A program made the translations under genes and the position numbers. This document shows, in pieces, positions 42,479 to 63,309 of a stretch of DNA of 64,000 bases (position 1 is its first letter; the number at the start of each line of letters is the position of its first letter). The DNA comes from Ktedonospora formicarum. Lineage in GTDB: Bacteria > Chloroflexota > Ktedonobacteria > Ktedonobacterales > Ktedonobacteraceae. Where the stretch lies: positions 2,802,501-2,866,500 of the forward strand of contig NZ_BNJF01000001.1 in NCBI RefSeq assembly GCF_016587355.1, written 5' to 3'. A model generated the notes under the pieces. It saw only the letters and a list, made by a program, of their open reading frames with translations. It had not been told where the DNA came from and did no database searches.

Positions 42479-45400
42479 ATGGGCAGAAAAGAAAAACGCA
42501 TAGAGCTTGAGAATGGCGAGGCAGTCTCGATTGGAGCTAGAATGCGCCTAGCGAGACAGGAGAAGGGTATTCGTATCTCCGATATGGCTCGTTTGATTGG
42601 CTATACTAAGAGCCGACTCTCATCAGTAGAAAACGGATATGGTCATCCTTCGCAGGAGCTGCTCCTGGCGTATGAGCAAACGTTAGCGCTTACTAGCGGC
42701 TCATTACTTACTCAGGAAACGCCAGCGAAGCCACTCTCTATGCCCACCCTCCATAGCCCGGAAACACCTCTAGCTGTCGCAGAAATTGATGATGAGCGCG
42801 CGGTTTTTGAGAAAACTGTCATATCAGTTGAGATGCGAACGACAACGATGAGTTCAGGAGGCGTGCAGGAGCATACAAGCGAGGCACCTAGAATAGCAAG
42901 CTTTTATGGGCGCGTGCGGGAGCTGCAGACGCTTGAGCAATGGATTGAACATGATCGTTGTCGTGTGGCATCTGTTTTGGGAATTGGTGGTGTGGGCAAG
43001 ACAATGCTTGCTTCTATGCTCAAAGAGCGGATTAAGGACCAGTTTGAATTCGTCTATTGGCGCACGCTGCAAAATGCCTTGCCGCTTGAGGAGTTCCTCG
43101 TCGACTGTATCCGTTTCCTTTCTGGCTTGGAGCAGGTGGAGCTGCCCGATGATGTTGGCGAGCTGATTGAGAGATTGGGAGCGTACTTGCATGAGCATCG
43201 TTGCTTGTTGATCCTTGATAATGTGGAGACCATCCTGGTGAGTGGGCAGAGCGCGGGCAATTACCGTCCGGGCTATGAGGGGTATGGCGAGCTGGTTGAG
43301 TATGTCGCAGATAATGCCCATAAGAGTTGCCTTATTTTGACCAGCCGTGAGCTTCCGCGAGAGATCGAATTCTGGACACGCTCTTCCGCTCATTTATTGC
43401 AACTGGCAGGTATCGGCCTGGAAGAGGGCCGTCTCATTTTGCAAGAGCGCGAGCTGGTTGGCAGCGACGAAGAGTTCATGGAGTTGATCCATGTCTATGC
43501 AGGAAATCCTCTGGCATTGAAACTGGTTGCCGCGCCGATCCGCGAGATCTTTGGCGGAGAGATCTCAGAGTTCCTCTCCGAGCGTGGGATGGTCATTGGA
43601 GATATCTATGATCTCATTGATAAACAATTCCACCGTCTCTCAGATCAGGAACAGGAGATGATCTATTGGTTAGCGCTGGCCTGTGAGCCTGTCTCACTCA
43701 ATGATATCTCGAAAGAAATTGTGCGACCGGTTCCTCGCCGTGAGTTGCTGGCGGCGCTTGATTCATTGCGACGGCGTTCTATGATTGAGAATAGCAATGG
43801 ATCGCGCTTCACGCTCCAGCCTGTGATTATGGAGTATGTGACTGATGCTCTGGTTGAGAATGTATGCCAAGAGATCGAGCGTAAACAATATTCCCTTCTG
43901 ACCAGTCACGCACTTATTCGCGCACAAGCCAAGGATCATATTCGTAATAACCAGATTCGCCTTTTCCTGGAGCCAATCGGACTACAATTACTGACGAAAC
44001 TTGGCAAGATGGAGTGTGAGGCACGTCTGAAGGAGATGCTCAAGGACTTACAGAATCAGCGTCCTCAGACACCAGAGTATACGGCTGGCAATCTCTTAAA
44101 CTTACTGGTGCAGTTGAAAATTGACTTACGCAGTTACGACTTCTCGAATTTAGTTGTTTGGAATGCTTATCTGCAAGATGTCTCGTTACCCAAGGTGAAC
44201 TTCGTTTCGTCGCAACTGGAGCATTGTGTATTTAGCGATACTTTCGGAAGTATTCTCTCGGTTGCGGTATGTGATGATGGTAGCAAACTAGCCGCAGGAA
44301 CAGCCAATGGCGATGTGCGTCTCTGGAACGCACATACGGGTGCTCCTTTAGGTATTTGCCAGGGGCATACTGACTGGGTGCGCGCGGTTGATATTAGCCA
44401 CGATGGCTCTAAGGTCATCAGTGGTAGTGATGATCAGTTTTTACGTTTATGGGATACACGTACGACACAGTGCCTGAAGACTTTGATTGGGCATACCAAT
44501 CGCATTCGCTCCGTCGCCTTCAGTCCAAAAGATGATCTGATCATCAGTGCTAGTGATGATATGACGCTTATGCTGTGGGATATTGAAAAGGGCGAGTGTT
44601 TATATACCTTCCGTGGTCATGAGAGTCGTGTATGGGCGGTCGCTTATAGCCATGATAGCAGGTATGTTGCCAGTGGAAGTAGCGATTACACGGTTCGTCT
44701 GTGGGATGTAGAGAGTGGTGAATGCTTACATGTTATGCGTGGGCATAAGGGGCGAGTACATGCTGTTACCTTCAGTCCTGACGGTTGCTACCTGGCTAGC
44801 GGAGGCGAGGATCAGACGGTACGCCTCTGGGATTTGCGGACAGGACAGTGCTTGAAAATCTTTTATGGGCATACTGGACGTATCTGGCCTGTGCGTTTTA
44901 GCTATGATAGTAAGCGTCTTGCCAGTGGAAGCGATGACCGCTCGATTCGGATCTGGGATGTGGAGAGTGGTGAATGTAGCTCGACGTTGCGTGGACATAA
45001 CAATCGTGTATGGGCACTCGCGTATAGCCCCGATGATCAGATGCTTGTGAGCGGAAGTGATGACCAGACCATTCGCCTTTGGAGTTGTGAGGATGGTCAA
45101 TGCTTCAAGACCTTACAGGGGCACAGTAGTCGCGTGCGCTCGGTCTGCTTTAGTCCTGATGGTTTGCGTCTGCTCAGTGGAAGTGATGACAGGGCTGTGC
45201 GCCTTTGGAACGTTGATACTGGTCGTAGCATCAAAACGCTACAAGGGCATAGCACCTGGATTTATACTGTCGCCTATAGCCCACAGGGTAACATTGTCGC
45301 TAGTGGCAGTGACGACCAGACTATTCGCCTCTGGGATGTGAATACTGGCTATTGTTTGCGTACCCTGGGTGGGCACGGAAACTGGGTCCGTTCGGTCTGT

Positions 45401-46099
45401 TTTAGCCCCGATGGAACACAACTCCTGAGCGGAAGTGATGACCAGACGGTACGTCTCTGGCAAGTGAATACGGGTCTCTGTATACGTGTATTGCAAGAGA
45501 ACAAGAGCCGTATCTGGACAGTTGCTTTTAGCCCCGATGGCTCTACCGTTGCTAGTGGTGGTGAAGATGCCATCATTCGACTCTGGCATAAAGAGAGTGG
45601 CGAATTGCGCTATCAGCTAGCAGGGCATGAGAAGCGTGTGCGCTCAGTAACTTTTAGTCCCGATGGACGACTCCTCGCGAGCTGTAGCGATGATAGCACC
45701 GTGAGGCTCTGGGATCTGGCAAGCGGGCAATGTATTCGTGTGCTCAGAGGGCATATCAACTGGATCTGGTCAGTCGCGTTTAGCCCTGATAGTGCATATC
45801 TGACCAGTGGTGGGGACGATAATAGTTTGCGCTTGTGGGATGTTGAGGAGGGGCGTTTGCTCTGGTCTGGATATGAGCACAGTAAACGTATCTATTCCGT
45901 AGCCTTTCACCCAATGGGGGAGAGTATTGCCAGTGGTAGTTACGATGGTACAATCCGGCTCTGGAATGTAGCGACGGGCGAATGTTACAAGACATTGCGT
46001 AGGGAGCGTCCCTATGAGGACATGAATATTCGAGGGGTGACAGGTATCTCACCGGCCCAACGCGCTATGTTGCGCACACTGGGAGCCATCGAAGAGTGA
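42479..46099 (+). CDS. HTH - NB-ARC (STAND NTPase) - 14 x WD40 protein
   Basis: A 1206-residue protein. Residues 15-75 form an XRE-type helix-turn-helix ([23 protein letters not shown], then LSSVENG). The NB-ARC ATPase spans about 140-460: P-loop [16 protein letters not shown] near 165, Walker [11 protein letters not shown] near 245, the [10 protein letters not shown] motif near 340. A helical region and a pentapeptide-like strand ([21 protein letters not shown]) lead to 14 WD40 repeats of exactly 42 residues (590-1176), enough for two seven-bladed propellers. This is the plan of bacterial NLR-like sensors: propeller as ligand sensor, ATPase as switch, HTH as effector or DNA binder. Ligand and target are unknown. 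Divergent from a sigma-like gene. Confidence 0.92.
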
Positions 46100-57333: not shown

Positions 57334-57861
57334 CTATGAGCGCGGATTACGCCTGAGCAGATCGCGTAAGATGCTTCGATTGGAGGGAAACGCCAGATCT
57401 GGGAGTGTGTCGGGGGCGAAGAAGCCTAATTCGCTGACCTCCTCAACCTGGGGCGTGAGGTTCTGAATATTGTTGTCGAGAATCCTTCCCTGATAGGCGA
57501 TGATGATATGGGGACTACCATGCTGACTGTAGACGCCAATGAGACCCTCTAACTGTATGTCAAGATTGGTTTCCTCTTTGACCTCGCGTAGAGCGGCCTC
57601 CTCTACGCTCTCGTTCTGGTCGACATAGCCTCCGGTAAAGCCCCATTTGCCTTTGCCAGGATCGATATTGCGCTTTCCCAGCAGGAAACGTCCATTACGC
57701 TGGATAACGACTACGACAACCACCTTGGGATTCAGAAAGAAGATAAAACCGCAGTTTTCGCAGGCGAGGCGACGGGCATTGAAGAGTTCCTTCTCAATTA
57801 GTAGCGTAGCGCAGACCGGGCAATATTTTATTTCACTAAGATTGGGCATCGTTCCGCTCAC
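57334..57861 (-). CDS. Nudix hydrolase with N-terminal zinc ribbon (NADH-pyrophosphatase-like)
   Basis: A 175-residue protein. A zinc ribbon with Cys14/Cys17 and Cys34/Cys37 (YCPVC, CENCG) precedes a Nudix domain whose box GGYVDQNESVEEAALREVKEETNLD (77-101) is complete, GX5EX7REVKEE. This ribbon-plus-Nudix plan is that of NudC-type NADH/NAD-cap pyrophosphatases but shorter and lacking their SQPWPFPxS signature, so the substrate may differ. GTG 57861 is the likely start; AGGTG lies nine bases upstream. ATG 57849 is an alternative that would still keep the ribbon. Confidence 0.88.
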   Translation of the reverse strand: MSGTMPNLSEIKYCPVCATLLIEKELFNARRLACENCGFIFFLNPKVVVVVVIQRNGRFLLGKRNIDPGKGKWGFTGGYVDQNESVEEAALREVKEETNLDIQLEGLIGVYSQHGSPHIIIAYQGRILDNNIQNLTPQVEEVSELGFFAPDTLPDLAFPSNRSILRDLLRRNPRS

Positions 57862-58481
57862 TTTTCATGGCACCTGGCTCTCCTCAAAAGCTATGCTGTA
57901 TGGACTTGACAGGATGGGCAAGTAACTTCTATGCCTTTATACCTGTTCTCACCCGCCAGGTATGGTTCTCGCAGGTCATCTCATTCCAGGTGCTGCTGAT
58001 CATTGTATCATGATCGCGGCTCATGGCGATTAAAAATGGATCTGGTAATACGAGTCAAAGATGCGAGAAAGTACTTGCTGTATATCTGTGTGTCTTGTGC
58101 TTTTGAAGAGCTATGGCTGTAGTATAGTACCTTTTTCTTTTACTGCCTGGAGGATTGCTTTCGAGAAAACATTTATGTTAATCTCTTCTATGCGAGAGAA
58201 TTTTACTGGTGCGCATAAGGTTGGTACTCTCGGCGACCACTATGCATTCTATCTTGTTCAGGCAAAGAAGCCATGTATGTAAAATGCTCTAAGAATGCTT
58301 TTTTGTAATGTGTTCCTCTGGTAAGTAGTTGAGCACTACTTCCTCTCTACTTACGCTACGGCGTACCCCATTCTCTGTGATTTTTGTTCTATCTCCTTTG
58401 CTATCAGCAGTGTATTGATAAATATCGATTTGGGGTGCGCTGTCTCAAAAAATTGTTGTGTTTATTCTAGGGGGTTATATT
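57862..58481. other. 620-base region upstream of the S53 peptidase gene, with competing hairpins at 58321-58354
   Basis: No gene is supported; frames of 60-75 codons lack ribosome sites. GTAAGTAG (58321-58328) can pair with CTACTTAC (58347-58354), or its overlapping AAGTAGT (58323-58329) can pair with ACTACTT (58335-58341); the two folds exclude each other. This lies about 130 bases before the peptidase start and may be a regulatory leader. Confidence 0.4.
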
Positions 58482-61400
58482 ATGCCGTTCAAAGCTCTTT
58501 TGAGTGGCACTCAGCGCAAGCCTGGCTCAATGCGATACTGGCTTATTGGCTCAGCTGTCGCGCTTGCGCTCCTCGCCGGACTGGGAGCTACGATTCTACC
58601 CAATATGATTGGTTCGGCTTCAGCGAACCAACTCTCGTCCATTCCTGGCTCCGTTCCTTCTGTCGTGAAGAACAGCAAGAATGTCAGCACACTTACGACC
58701 AACCAGACACTCTCGATGGCGGTCAGCCTCAAGTTGCGCAACAAAGAGGCTTTGGAAAGCCTGCTACGTGACACCAAGGATAAGAAATCAGTCAACTATG
58801 GTCGTCACCTGACCGCCGATCAGGTAAAGAACTCCTTTACACCAACCCAGGAGTCCTACGATGCCGTGATTGCCTACTTGCAATCGCAGGGCTTCACGGT
58901 CACGCAGACCTACTCAAATCGCCTGCTGATCTCCTTCAGTGGCACCGCCGCCCAGGCCGAAACGGCCTTCCATGTTCAGATCAACAACTATGTGGACCCT
59001 AGTGGGACACAATTCTACTCCAATGCCAACGATCCTACCTTGCCCCCAACCATGGCGGGCTTAGTGCAAGGTATTGTCGGCCTGGATAACTATGCTAAAT
59101 TTACTCATTCACCCGTGAAGAAAACAGAGGTTAAAGCTAATACTAGCTCTAATGCTGCTGAACCTAATGCTGTAACATGCTACGCTGCTTCAAGTGATGC
59201 TAATTACTACACTCCTTCTCAATTAGCGACTGCTTACAATTATGACGGCCTTTATAACAAGGGCTTTAGAGGTGAGGGGCAGTCAATTGCACTTTTTGAG
59301 CTTGCTACCTTTAATCTAAACGATATTAAGGCTTTCACGAATTGTTACGGTAAGAGCCAAACCAGCATCCAGACTATACCAGTCACTGGCAACATCCGTT
59401 CTGATGGGGGGATGTTTGAAGTTGCTCTAGATGCAGATATTGTATTAAGTATGGCTCCCAAACTGAATCAGTTACGCATCTATGAAGCCAGTAATGATGT
59501 CCCTGGTTACCTTAGCGAGTGGGCGCGAATCATTAGTGATAACACTCCGGTAGTGAGTGTAAGTTGGGGCTTATGCGAAGCAAATCGATCACAAAACACG
59601 CTTGAAGCTTCAAATAACCTGTTTATGATTGCCGCTGCTCAGGGACAAACAATCGTTGCATCCTCTGGTGACGATGGGAGTTCGGGCTGCCAACGTAGTA
59701 GTACCAATCAAAATGCCCTTAGTGTTAGCGATCCAGCCAGCCAGCCCTATGTCACAGGTGTTGGAGGTACATCTTTAACAGTAGATGCGAACAACAAATA
59801 TACAATCGAGAGTGTTTGGAACGAGACAGCCTATTCAGACAGTACCAGTGGTGGTGGCGTAAGCACCTATTGGGCTCATCCTGCATGGCAGACTGGCACA
59901 GGCACAGATTCAAGCCTAATGCGCCAAGTTCCTGATGTGTCTTTGCATGCAGGTGGAGATAAATATTATCTCGTATATTGTACAATATCGTCTCTTGGCT
60001 GCTCAGCCGAAAATAACTGGTGGTTAGGTGCTGGGACCTCCGCAGCGGCTCCTATGTGGGCTGCTTTCGTGGCCCTCGCAAATGAGCAGTCGGTGAAGAG
60101 TGGTGGGTATAATCTAGGTTTTATCAACCCATATCTATACCAGATCACTGACTCAAAGTATACGAGCGACTTCCATGATGTTACTATTGGTAATAACGAT
60201 TATCAAGGGCTACAGGGAGGTAAGTATCCAGCTACCACTGGTTATGACATGGCGACGGGTCTGGGCAGCTTTAATGCGACCAACCTGGCGAATGATCTGG
60301 TCACGATGGCGAATGCCACAAAGGGCGCGCGCCAGGCTCCAGCGAGCAAAATCTGGTATTTCGCTGAGGGCAGCGTTGGTGGTAGCGATGGCTTCCAGGA
60401 GTTCATCTCCCTCCAGAATCCCGATGCGACAACCGATGCCCAGGTAAAGGTGACCTACCTGTTCGCGACTAAGACGGCTCTCTCTAAGACTTATACTGTG
60501 AAAGCCAGCACGCGCTACACCGTAAACGTGAATGCAGAGGTTGGCCTGTCAGACCTGAAGACTGTGCAGTATGCACTCTCGGCCATTGTTGAGGTGACGA
60601 GCGGCCCCGGTATTGTAGCGGAACGCCCTATGTACTTTAACTATCGTGGTCTCATCAAGGGTGGTACGGATGCCATGGGTGCTTCGCAGCCAGGTACCAG
60701 CTACTACTTCCCGCTGGCTGATACGACGCAAAACAAGACCACGCAAGCCTGGACCTACATTAGTATTCTGAACCCGAGCAAAACGCAGACCGCGAACGTG
60801 ACTATCACCTATGAGGATGGTCATTGTGGTAATGCTGGTCAGACTGCCTGCCGTACACAGATTATTCCTGTTGGTGCGCTCAAGCGCGGTACAGGTACTC
60901 CTACTGCCGTGGGCTTCAAGACTAAGACAGCGGTAAGCGTTACATCTGACCTGCCTGTCGTGGTTGAGCGTCCTCTGTATATCAGGACGAATGTTGCTAC
61001 ATCTGGTGGCTGGACGACTGGCTCGTCCAGTGAGGTTGGTGCGACCGCTCCGGCGACAACCGCGTACTTTGCTCAGGGCAATACTGGCAAGAACTTCCAG
61101 CAGTACTTCGTGATCGCGAACTACGGTGATGTTCCTGCTAACGTCTCGCTGAATTTGGTCTATAAGAGTGACTCTACTACGAGTCCGAAGACTATCACGG
61201 CCACTGTTGCTCCACATACACAGTACACAGTGGATGTGAATAAGAGCAATGCCGGCCTGCCTTCTGACTTTGGTGCGGAGGTGAGCTCGGATCAGCCAGT
61301 AGTTGTGGATCGTGAAGAGTTATTCCACTACGGTTCGGCCTTACAATCTGGTCAAACAGATGTGATTGGAACGCCCACGCCGAAGTCGGTCTACTCCTTC

Positions 61401-61703
61401 TCTGAAGGGTTTATCTCTTCGACCTTCACACAATACGTCAGCATCCTGAACCCAACTGACAATGACGAGACTGTCGTTATTACCTACTTTGGTAGCGGCT
61501 CTGTCTTCCAGCAGCAGTTTGTGGTGAAGGCGCACAAGATCATTCTCGTCAATGTGAGCAACGCGATAGCTCCTTTCGGAGATGGCAATAACTCGTCGAC
61601 TGTTCAGGCGATGAGCGGTACCATTGTGGTTGAGCGCTTGATGTACTTTGGTTACCACGACCGTACTGGTGGCTCGGATGTCATCGGTTATACTGGTGAC
61701 TAA
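58482..61703 (+). CDS. secreted S53 peptidase (sedolisin/kumamolisin type) with C-terminal beta repeats
   Basis: A 1073-residue exported endopeptidase of acidic-active type. ATG 58482 (GGGGG upstream) starts a basic N-terminus and signal segment WLIGSAVALALLAGLGATI. The propeptide (50-200) has the kumamolisin-prodomain motifs; the catalytic domain (200-590) carries Glu/Asp in GGMFEVALDADIVLSM, the oxyanion Asp in SSGDDGSSGC and the Ser in GAGTSAAAPMWAAF, with the calcium site near its end. Residues 605-1073 hold four related beta modules of about 110 residues, each with F-(A/S)-E/Q-G...(F)-x-x-(Y/F)-(I/V)-S-(L/I)-x-N-P. The DNA for residues 200-590 is lower in GC than either flank, suggesting a domain swap. 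Confidence 0.92.
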   Translation: MPFKALLSGTQRKPGSMRYWLIGSAVALALLAGLGATILPNMIGSASANQLSSIPGSVPSVVKNSKNVSTLTTNQTLSMAVSLKLRNKEALESLLRDTKDKKSVNYGRHLTADQVKNSFTPTQESYDAVIAYLQSQGFTVTQTYSNRLLISFSGTAAQAETAFHVQINNYVDPSGTQFYSNANDPTLPPTMAGLVQGIVGLDNYAKFTHSPVKKTEVKANTSSNAAEPNAVTCYAASSDANYYTPSQLATAYNYDGLYNKGFRGEGQSIALFELATFNLNDIKAFTNCYGKSQTSIQTIPVTGNIRSDGGMFEVALDADIVLSMAPKLNQLRIYEASNDVPGYLSEWARIISDNTPVVSVSWGLCEANRSQNTLEASNNLFMIAAAQGQTIVASSGDDGSSGCQRSSTNQNALSVSDPASQPYVTGVGGTSLTVDANNKYTIESVWNETAYSDSTSGGGVSTYWAHPAWQTGTGTDSSLMRQVPDVSLHAGGDKYYLVYCTISSLGCSAENNWWLGAGTSAAAPMWAAFVALANEQSVKSGGYNLGFINPYLYQITDSKYTSDFHDVTIGNNDYQGLQGGKYPATTGYDMATGLGSFNATNLANDLVTMANATKGARQAPASKIWYFAEGSVGGSDGFQEFISLQNPDATTDAQVKVTYLFATKTALSKTYTVKASTRYTVNVNAEVGLSDLKTVQYALSAIVEVTSGPGIVAERPMYFNYRGLIKGGTDAMGASQPGTSYYFPLADTTQNKTTQAWTYISILNPSKTQTANVTITYEDGHCGNAGQTACRTQIIPVGALKRGTGTPTAVGFKTKTAVSVTSDLPVVVERPLYIRTNVATSGGWTTGSSSEVGATAPATTAYFAQGNTGKNFQQYFVIANYGDVPANVSLNLVYKSDSTTSPKTITATVAPHTQYTVDVNKSNAGLPSDFGAEVSSDQPVVVDREELFHYGSALQSGQTDVIGTPTPKSVYSFSEGFISSTFTQYVSILNPTDNDETVVITYFGSGSVFQQQFVVKAHKIILVNVSNAIAPFGDGNNSSTVQAMSGTIVVERLMYFGYHDRTGGSDVIGYTGD

Positions 61704-61848: not shown

Positions 61849-61890
61849 GGCAGCGTAATTACCACTTTTACGCTCGATGAGGAGATGTAC

Positions 61891-63309
61891 ATGACTATGA
61901 CTCAAGAAACCCGTCTCGAACGCGATTCGATGGGCGAGATGCAGGTTCCCATACATGCCTATTATGGAGCTAGTACTCAGCGTGCCGTGTTAAACTTTCC
62001 CATTAGTGATTTGCGGTTCCCCCGTGCTTTTATTCAGGCCTTGGGGCAAATTAAACAGGCTGCCGCGCAGGTAAATGCCGACCTGGGAACGGTCGATGCC
62101 ACCATTGCCGAAGCGATTACGCAAGCGGCTCAGGAAGTGATTGCGGGCAAGCTTGATGAACACTTTGTGCTGGATATTTTTCAAACTGGCTCAGGCACCT
62201 CAACCAATATGAATGCCAACGAAGTGATCGCAAATCGTGCCAGTGAATTGCTTGGTGGTTCGCGTGGATCACGCAAAGTACATCCAAATGATCATGTAAA
62301 CTTTGGTCAGTCCTCAAATGATGTCATTCCCTCAGCGATCCACCTCTCAGCGTTTGTAAGTCTGGAGCATGATCTTATACCCGCGCTTCAGGAGCTTCAG
62401 CAAGCTTTACAAGAGAAGGCCGACGAGTTTATGCCTGTCGTCAAGACCGGGCGTACGCACCTACAGGATGCGACTCCGATTCGACTGGGTCAGGAGTTTT
62501 TGGGCTATGCTGGACAGATTGAGCGAGGAATCACGCGTGTGCGCCATGCCCAGAGCGAACTCTCGGAACTGGCTCTGGGTGGTACAGCGGTTGGAACTGG
62601 CGTCAATACACACCCCGAGTTTGCCGCGCGTGTATCGCGAGTTCTTTCCAGCATGAATGGCGTTGACGTTCATGAGACCAGTAACCATTTCCAGGCCCAG
62701 AGCACACTAGATGGTATTGTCGAGGCAAGTGGTGCGCTGAATACCCTGGCGGTAAGCCTGATGAAGATCGCGAATGATATTCGCTGGCTTGGCTCTGGTC
62801 CGCGTGCAGGCATTGGAGAGATCGAACTTCCAGCCGTCCAGCCTGGTAGCTCAATCATGCCGGGTAAAGTCAACCCCGTGATCGCGGAGTCTGTTTGTAT
62901 GGTCTGCGCGCAGGTAATGGGAAATCATACGACGATCACCATCGCGGGGCAGACAGGTAACTTCGAGATTAACGTGATGATGCCGGTAACGGCCTATAAT
63001 CTTTTGCAGTCGATTAACTTGCTGGCTGCTTCCGCGCGCAACTTTACACGCCAGTGCATTAAGGGTCTCAAAGCTACGACGAAGGGGCCCGAAATGGTAG
63101 AGCGAGGTTTGGCGATTTGTACCTCGCTAGCCCCAGTGATTGGGTATGATGCCGCCGCTGCTATCTCCAAGGAGGCGCATAAGACTGGTAAGACTGTGCG
63201 GGAGATCGCGCGCGAACAGACCAACCTCTCTGAAGAGGATCTGAATCGTATTCTCGATCCAGCTAGCATGACAAAGCCCGGTCTCGATGGCGGACCAGCC
63301 GGAGGCTAA
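61891..63309 (+). CDS. fumC: fumarate hydratase, class II
   Basis: FumC reversibly hydrates fumarate to malate in the TCA cycle; iron-independent. The start at ATG 61891 follows AGGAG by six bases; the frame runs back to 61777 through the promoter region and is not used. The 472 residues show TGSGTSTNMNANEVIANRA near 105, KTGRTHLQDATPI near 185 (catalytic His), and the superfamily signature GSSIMPGKVNPVIAES near 315 containing the catalytic Ser loop. Length is the family norm. It is monocistronic, between strong terminators. Confidence 0.97.
   Translation: MTMTQETRLERDSMGEMQVPIHAYYGASTQRAVLNFPISDLRFPRAFIQALGQIKQAAAQVNADLGTVDATIAEAITQAAQEVIAGKLDEHFVLDIFQTGSGTSTNMNANEVIANRASELLGGSRGSRKVHPNDHVNFGQSSNDVIPSAIHLSAFVSLEHDLIPALQELQQALQEKADEFMPVVKTGRTHLQDATPIRLGQEFLGYAGQIERGITRVRHAQSELSELALGGTAVGTGVNTHPEFAARVSRVLSSMNGVDVHETSNHFQAQSTLDGIVEASGALNTLAVSLMKIANDIRWLGSGPRAGIGEIELPAVQPGSSIMPGKVNPVIAESVCMVCAQVMGNHTTITIAGQTGNFEINVMMPVTAYNLLQSINLLAASARNFTRQCIKGLKATTKGPEMVERGLAICTSLAPVIGYDAAAAISKEAHKTGKTVREIAREQTNLSEEDLNRILDPASMTKPGLDGGPAGG

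Follow-up and report, generated by a model that had tools for sequence, protein, structure and literature searches.

The gene for an exported S53 (kumamolisin-like) peptidase in the 64,000 nucleotide stretch of Ktedonospora formicarum DNA analysed here (the window) displays a valley of low GC3 over its catalytic core. The explanation we lean towards is concerted evolution of the flanking regions by gene conversion, probably GC-biased, around cores that lie near an AT-rich equilibrium. Gene conversion of the flanks is itself well supported in tandem arrays of co-orthologous genes present at the same locus in two sister species, Ktedonobacter robiniae SOSP1-30 (G015) and Ktedonobacter sp. SOSP1-85 (G016). 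Replacement of the core in the window gene, as proposed in an earlier sequence-only reading, is not supported.

A GC3 valley coincides with the catalytic core of the S53 gene

The S53 gene, defined by its ORF and by sequence comparison, occupies positions 58482..61703 on the forward strand, as do all of the features within it. The ORF starts with GTG at 58458, and the ATG at 58482 (MPFK...) is common to all array copies. A putative N-terminal export/membrane segment, inferred from a hydrophobic stretch in the sequence and from the alignment (58482..58637), precedes the pro-kumamolisin activation domain (PF09286, E = 8e-36; 58671..59090). The low-GC3 segment, as delimited by fitted breakpoints, comprises the pro/mature linker and the S53 catalytic core (59061..60246) and is followed by ~470 residues of C-terminal repeat modules with high GC3 (60247..61700), where Pfam matches were weak (ASRT, 60705-60968; DUF5719, 61044-61289). 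Alignment to kumamolisin 1t1e indicated that the catalytic Glu (E321) and Asp (D325) of the motif E-x-x-x-D (59418..59432), the oxyanion Asp (D405; 59670..59672) and the catalytic Ser (S528) in GTSAAAP (60039..60041) are all intact. Because all four residues are kept, the window copy should be an active protease. With its propeptide and a core carrying E-D-D-S, the protein resembles S53 sedolisin/kumamolisin peptidases and can be aligned end to end with kumamolisin, from which it differs in the added C-terminal repeat modules. The locus is bounded upstream by a NUDIX-type gene (57334..57861, reverse strand) and downstream by fumC, encoding a class II fumarase (61885..63309, forward strand), both named from sequence. 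An AlphaFold model built from 8 sequences had a mean pLDDT of 35 and was left out of the analysis. Elsewhere in the 10.7 Mb window genome, a decayed S53 copy carries three in-frame stops (L053:2683-3939; G000:C1:3907674-3908975).

The sequence-only reading had counted 33, 25 and 33 GC bases in three 60-base samples (58801-58860, 59161-59220 and 60241-60300), counts that proved exact, and had proposed a shift of codon choice in the middle of the gene, which was borne out. GC and GC3 were 0.53 and 0.63 in the propeptide part (before 59090), 0.45 and 0.38 between 59090 and 60245, and 0.53 and about 0.59-0.60 in the C-terminal part. GC1 and GC2 were each nearly level along the gene, and the valley is therefore a codon-choice signal. 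Once amino acid composition was removed, the GC3 contrast between inside and outside gave z = -7.3, the strongest among 58 sampled genes of at least 500 codons from the same genome (runner-up 4.2), for which 20 sampled 20-kb stretches and the window formed the baseline. Codon shuffling of the S53 gene (n=1000) never reached 7.3, the maximum contrast being 4.8. A three-segment fit placed the breakpoints at 59061 (range 59043-59100) and 60246 (range 59997-60276), no more than 30 bases from the core borders proposed earlier (59090 and 60245). The second-strongest within-gene GC3 contrast in the window (z 4.0) was found in a WD40-repeat protein gene (42479-46099).

Edges this sharp, and this well matched to a domain, are in keeping with the idea that the core of the window gene was replaced, via conserved flanks, from an AT-richer donor. 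The codon usage of the core argues against it. Among native stretches of 385 codons, 5 of 458 had a GC3 as low as that of the core, which puts it in the lowest 1-2 %, and codon usage in the core correlated with that of native low-GC3 genes (r 0.84). Lying within the native low-GC3 range in its codon usage, the core is not conspicuous as foreign.

The valley is shared with tandem arrays in sister species

NUDIX and fumC are syntenic in the window genome, G014, G015 and G016. The window genome carries a single S53 copy at this position, and tandem arrays of S53 co-orthologues occupy it in G015 (three copies) and G016 (five copies). In G014, NUDIX adjoins fumC and no trace of S53 was found between them (L140:6170-6488). 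Around this locus, G014 shares about 94-97 % identity with G015/G016 but only about 67-82 % with the window, and loss of the array would most simply explain its empty locus. In K. robiniae, a frameshift close to residue 317 divides the first array copy, whose catalytic residues are otherwise kept (L039:14724-15695, L039:12451-14697), and a DDE transposase and an OrfB/TnpB-type gene are present within or beside the G016 array (L038:7415-8797, L038:12975-14231).

The valley was present in 9/9 array copies or pieces, with core GC3 of 0.30-0.48 and flank GC3 of 0.58-0.74, and the contrast ranged from z -7.3 to -10.1 across the full-length array copies. The same valley in every sister-species counterpart indicates that the window gene holds no recent foreign insert. 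The sequence-only reading had itself set a low-GC middle in all orthologues against core replacement, and this is what every array copy displayed. Outgroup homologues mostly lacked the valley (core minus flank GC3 -0.09 to +0.11), save G026_L056 at -0.16. This homologue from another genus (L056:22-2394) had a core GC3 of 0.49 versus 0.59 and 0.72 in its flanks, with the core more diverged than the flanks, and is a possible independent case of a low-GC3 diverged core. Beyond the clade, low core GC3 likewise tracked excess core divergence (rho -0.42, n = 23).

Separate phylogenies of the propeptide, core and C-terminal part, whose discordance the sequence-only reading had named as support for replacement, each placed the window gene and the arrays in one 100/100 clade. 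Neighbours of the clade were drawn from the same homologue group (G028, G002_L046, G003_L048 and G017). No conflict between core and flank trees was found for the window gene across the three trees or in an AU test, where the flank topology, with the window outside all array copies, was not rejected by the core data (p = 0.255). A search of 47 class genomes and a 400-genome phylum sample found no closer core outside the clade, the best outside matches reaching 53-56 %. Searching plasmids and phages returned no phage match and weak plasmid matches of about 28-35 %. A contig scan with the window core as query gave no match, and with the alignment as query it matched the sister arrays only; searching the literature for Ktedonobacter sedolisins was without result. 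Given that all three trees recovered one clade with overlapping relatives, no foreign core donor is seen. The marks of a recent foreign domain replacement, namely conflict between core and flank trees and a valley limited to the recipient, were both absent. The shared valley, congruent clade placement and lack of a closer outside core thus leave foreign-core replacement unsupported; core and flanks do recombine apart within the family, as described below, but we consider replacement of the window core from an AT-richer donor very unlikely.

Array flanks are exchanged around inherited cores

Between array copies, the flanks were ~90 % identical at the amino acid level and the cores ~60 % identical. 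The same contrast, though milder, was seen between the window gene and the array copies (flanks about 70 %, core about 57 %), whereas outgroup comparisons usually displayed the opposite, with cores better conserved than flanks. The second copies (c2) of G015 and G016, which are positional orthologues with cores 98 % identical, were especially informative. The c2 cores differed by a dS of 0.068 and a dN of 0.010, with neighbouring genes at dS 0 to 0.20, and dS in the two c2 flanks was 0.53 and 0.45, the change between the two levels falling at residues 202-229 on one side and at about 605-619 on the other. With the core at ordinary species-level dS and the flanks far above the neighbouring genes, these sequences indicate that the c2 flanks were overwritten by paralogous sequence and the core was inherited. 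The recombination at core/flank borders postulated by the sequence-only reading therefore holds for the sister-species arrays, but not as core replacement in the window gene, and its picture of flanks kept while the core was swapped is inverted in c2, where the direction is readable.

The borders at which flanks and cores decouple in the arrays coincide with the GC3 breakpoints of the window gene. A PHI-type recombination test was significant when applied to the entire gene, to the core and to the C-terminal part (p = 0.001 for each), and not when applied to the propeptide by itself (p = 0.076). Each copy had different best partners along the gene, and near-identical mosaic tracts were shared between non-matching copies. 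As in the concerted evolution of tandem paralogues, array flank tracts of non-matching copies resembled each other more than those of positional orthologues did, and recombination was detected. Unlike the usual case, conversion in the arrays is mostly confined to the flanks, halting at the border of a deeply diverged core, and composition shifts at these same borders. Paralogue similarity above the orthologue expectation was observed only in the sister species; because the window genome has a single copy, conversion cannot be shown there. In other S53 clusters considered as a contrast (G006 and G007), the flanks were not homogenised and a valley was not consistently present. Separately, a copy in G014 (L040:3277-6552) displayed a core/flank conflict, its core being closest to L042 (L042:2097-5035; 77 %) and its flanks to L041 (L041:2755-5976; 73 and 66 %).

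Decoupling of this kind might also arise if the conserved flanks allowed whole cores from an AT-rich pool to be swapped among copies or among strains, in the manner of rhs tips or hsdS target domains. Among G015 and G016 cores at matching positions, only c2 was shared, the rest differing by about 40 %, which fits such shuffling; the unmatched cores are equally explained by unequal crossing-over with copy loss. The rhs loci have the same decoupling, in that recombination within the conserved part of a gene lets its variable part evolve separately, and their dissociated tips are bounded by a GC peak in the conserved part (PMC2935791). In contrast to rhs, the variable part of the S53 genes is internal rather than C-terminal, the tandem genes are full-length, and neither displaced silent variable parts near the locus nor silent cassettes or free cores were found, whether in the arrays or in the search of class genomes. 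The target-recognition domains of type I restriction systems encoded by hsdS are variable internal domains between conserved regions. The S53 core is likewise internal and placed between conserved flanks, but the arrays, unlike hsdS, offered no evidence for inversion or programmed shuffling. Shuffling would moreover need an AT-rich pool though the nearest relatives are not AT-rich, and in c2 it was the flanks that changed rather than the core. We therefore regard core shuffling as rather unlikely.

GC3 follows identity between copies

Array flanks had a 4-fold GC of 0.65-0.81, above the genome value of 0.635, and array cores fell below it at 0.41-0.46. At the 30-codon scale, GC3 correlated with inter-copy identity (rho 0.76 overall, 0.65 within the core and 0.45 within the flanks), a relationship that is partly circular because chance matches are commoner where third positions are GC-rich. 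At flank 4-fold sites there was a strong tendency for G/C to be the state of most copies (48 sites at 6/7, five at 1/7), as opposed to an even G/C frequency spectrum at core sites, a difference that could result from a non-equilibrium history; array copies do not represent independent events in these statistics. Single-copy changes in the flanks were mostly towards AT (39 S>W versus 4 W>S), implying an equilibrium GC of ~0.40, with a loose 95 % interval of 0.14-0.57, near the 4-fold GC of the array cores. Such patterns would be expected if conversion were GC-biased in the exchanging flanks and absent from the core, in agreement with a reported link of recombination to GC content across bacteria (PMC4450053), but they do not amount to proof, and GC-biased conversion in bacteria is disputed (PMC8153448). 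Two observations weigh against flank conversion around cores at a simple equilibrium. The 4-fold GC of the window core (0.325) was lower than the intergenic GC of the window genome (0.454), which is below what a simple equilibrium calls for unless intergenic DNA is constrained, and the flanks of G007/G009 were more alike than their cores, yet without a GC valley.

The clade-wide valley could alternatively reflect an AT-rich core gained once in the clade ancestor and ameliorated only in part, and the 4-fold identity between cores (about 0.4-0.5) permits incomplete amelioration. However, the core adjoins the same Ktedonobacterales homologues as the flanks, mostly of normal GC3, GC3 varied with local identity even inside the core and inside the flanks, and import does not predict flanks above the genome mean. 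Such an ancestral gain appears distinctly unlikely. Selection on codons during translation, whether for accuracy at conserved sites or for slow codons in S53 folding, receives some backing from the higher GC3 of invariant residues within cores (0.48) compared to variable ones (0.40). The regional effect nonetheless stayed at invariant residues, both in the arrays (core 0.48, flanks 0.71) and in the window gene (0.43 and 0.59), and homologues expected to share the same fold lack the valley. Translational accuracy was rejected as the main cause by this site-class comparison, and translational selection as a whole is highly improbable as the source of the valley.

Loss of catalytic residues and possible diversification of the locus

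Several array paralogues, unlike S53 sedolisin/kumamolisin peptidases, lack catalytic residues. The alignment showed losses in four core lineages: c2 in both species (Glu to Trp and Ser to Pro), 16c3 (Glu to Lys and oxyanion Asp to Asn), 16c4 (Glu to Lys) and 16c5 (oxyanion Asp to Met). The genes concerned are located at L037:6617-9853, L039:9093-12320, L038:397-3642, L038:3783-7007 and L038:9235-12492. Between the two species, the dN/dS of the c2 core was about 0.14, suggestive of purifying selection on a non-enzymatic role, and the core appears to have been kept for a non-catalytic function, perhaps binding.

Flank conversion, our preferred reading, would account for the locus as follows. 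The window gene would be the sole remaining locus member of an exported S53 family whose tandem arrays lie between NUDIX and fumC. Gene conversion or unequal exchange has repeatedly copied the propeptide and C-terminal modules from one array neighbour to another in the two sister species, and the catalytic core, mostly too diverged for exchange, has retained old, deep lineages. The valley would mark the distinction between exchanging flanks and a non-exchanging core. The flanks would be held GC-rich, most likely via GC-biased conversion, the non-converting core would sit near an AT-biased mutational equilibrium, and the window gene would display the valley through descent from the same array system. 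The outcome would be exported proteases that share an export/surface frame and carry diversified cores, some of them pseudoproteases. A broader and more tentative possibility is that the array between NUDIX and fumC serves to diversify exported S53 cores, among them pseudoproteases under purifying selection, with flank conversion preserving the frame and the valley constituting a footprint of GC-biased conversion within a bacterial gene.

GC shifts within genes are often taken as foreign DNA, and the S53 valley, which is shared across a clade and linked to exchange, offers another reading. It also provides a small natural setting for asking whether bacterial GC is raised by gene conversion, and the arrays reveal exported proteases in a tandem family, several of whose cores are without catalytic residues.
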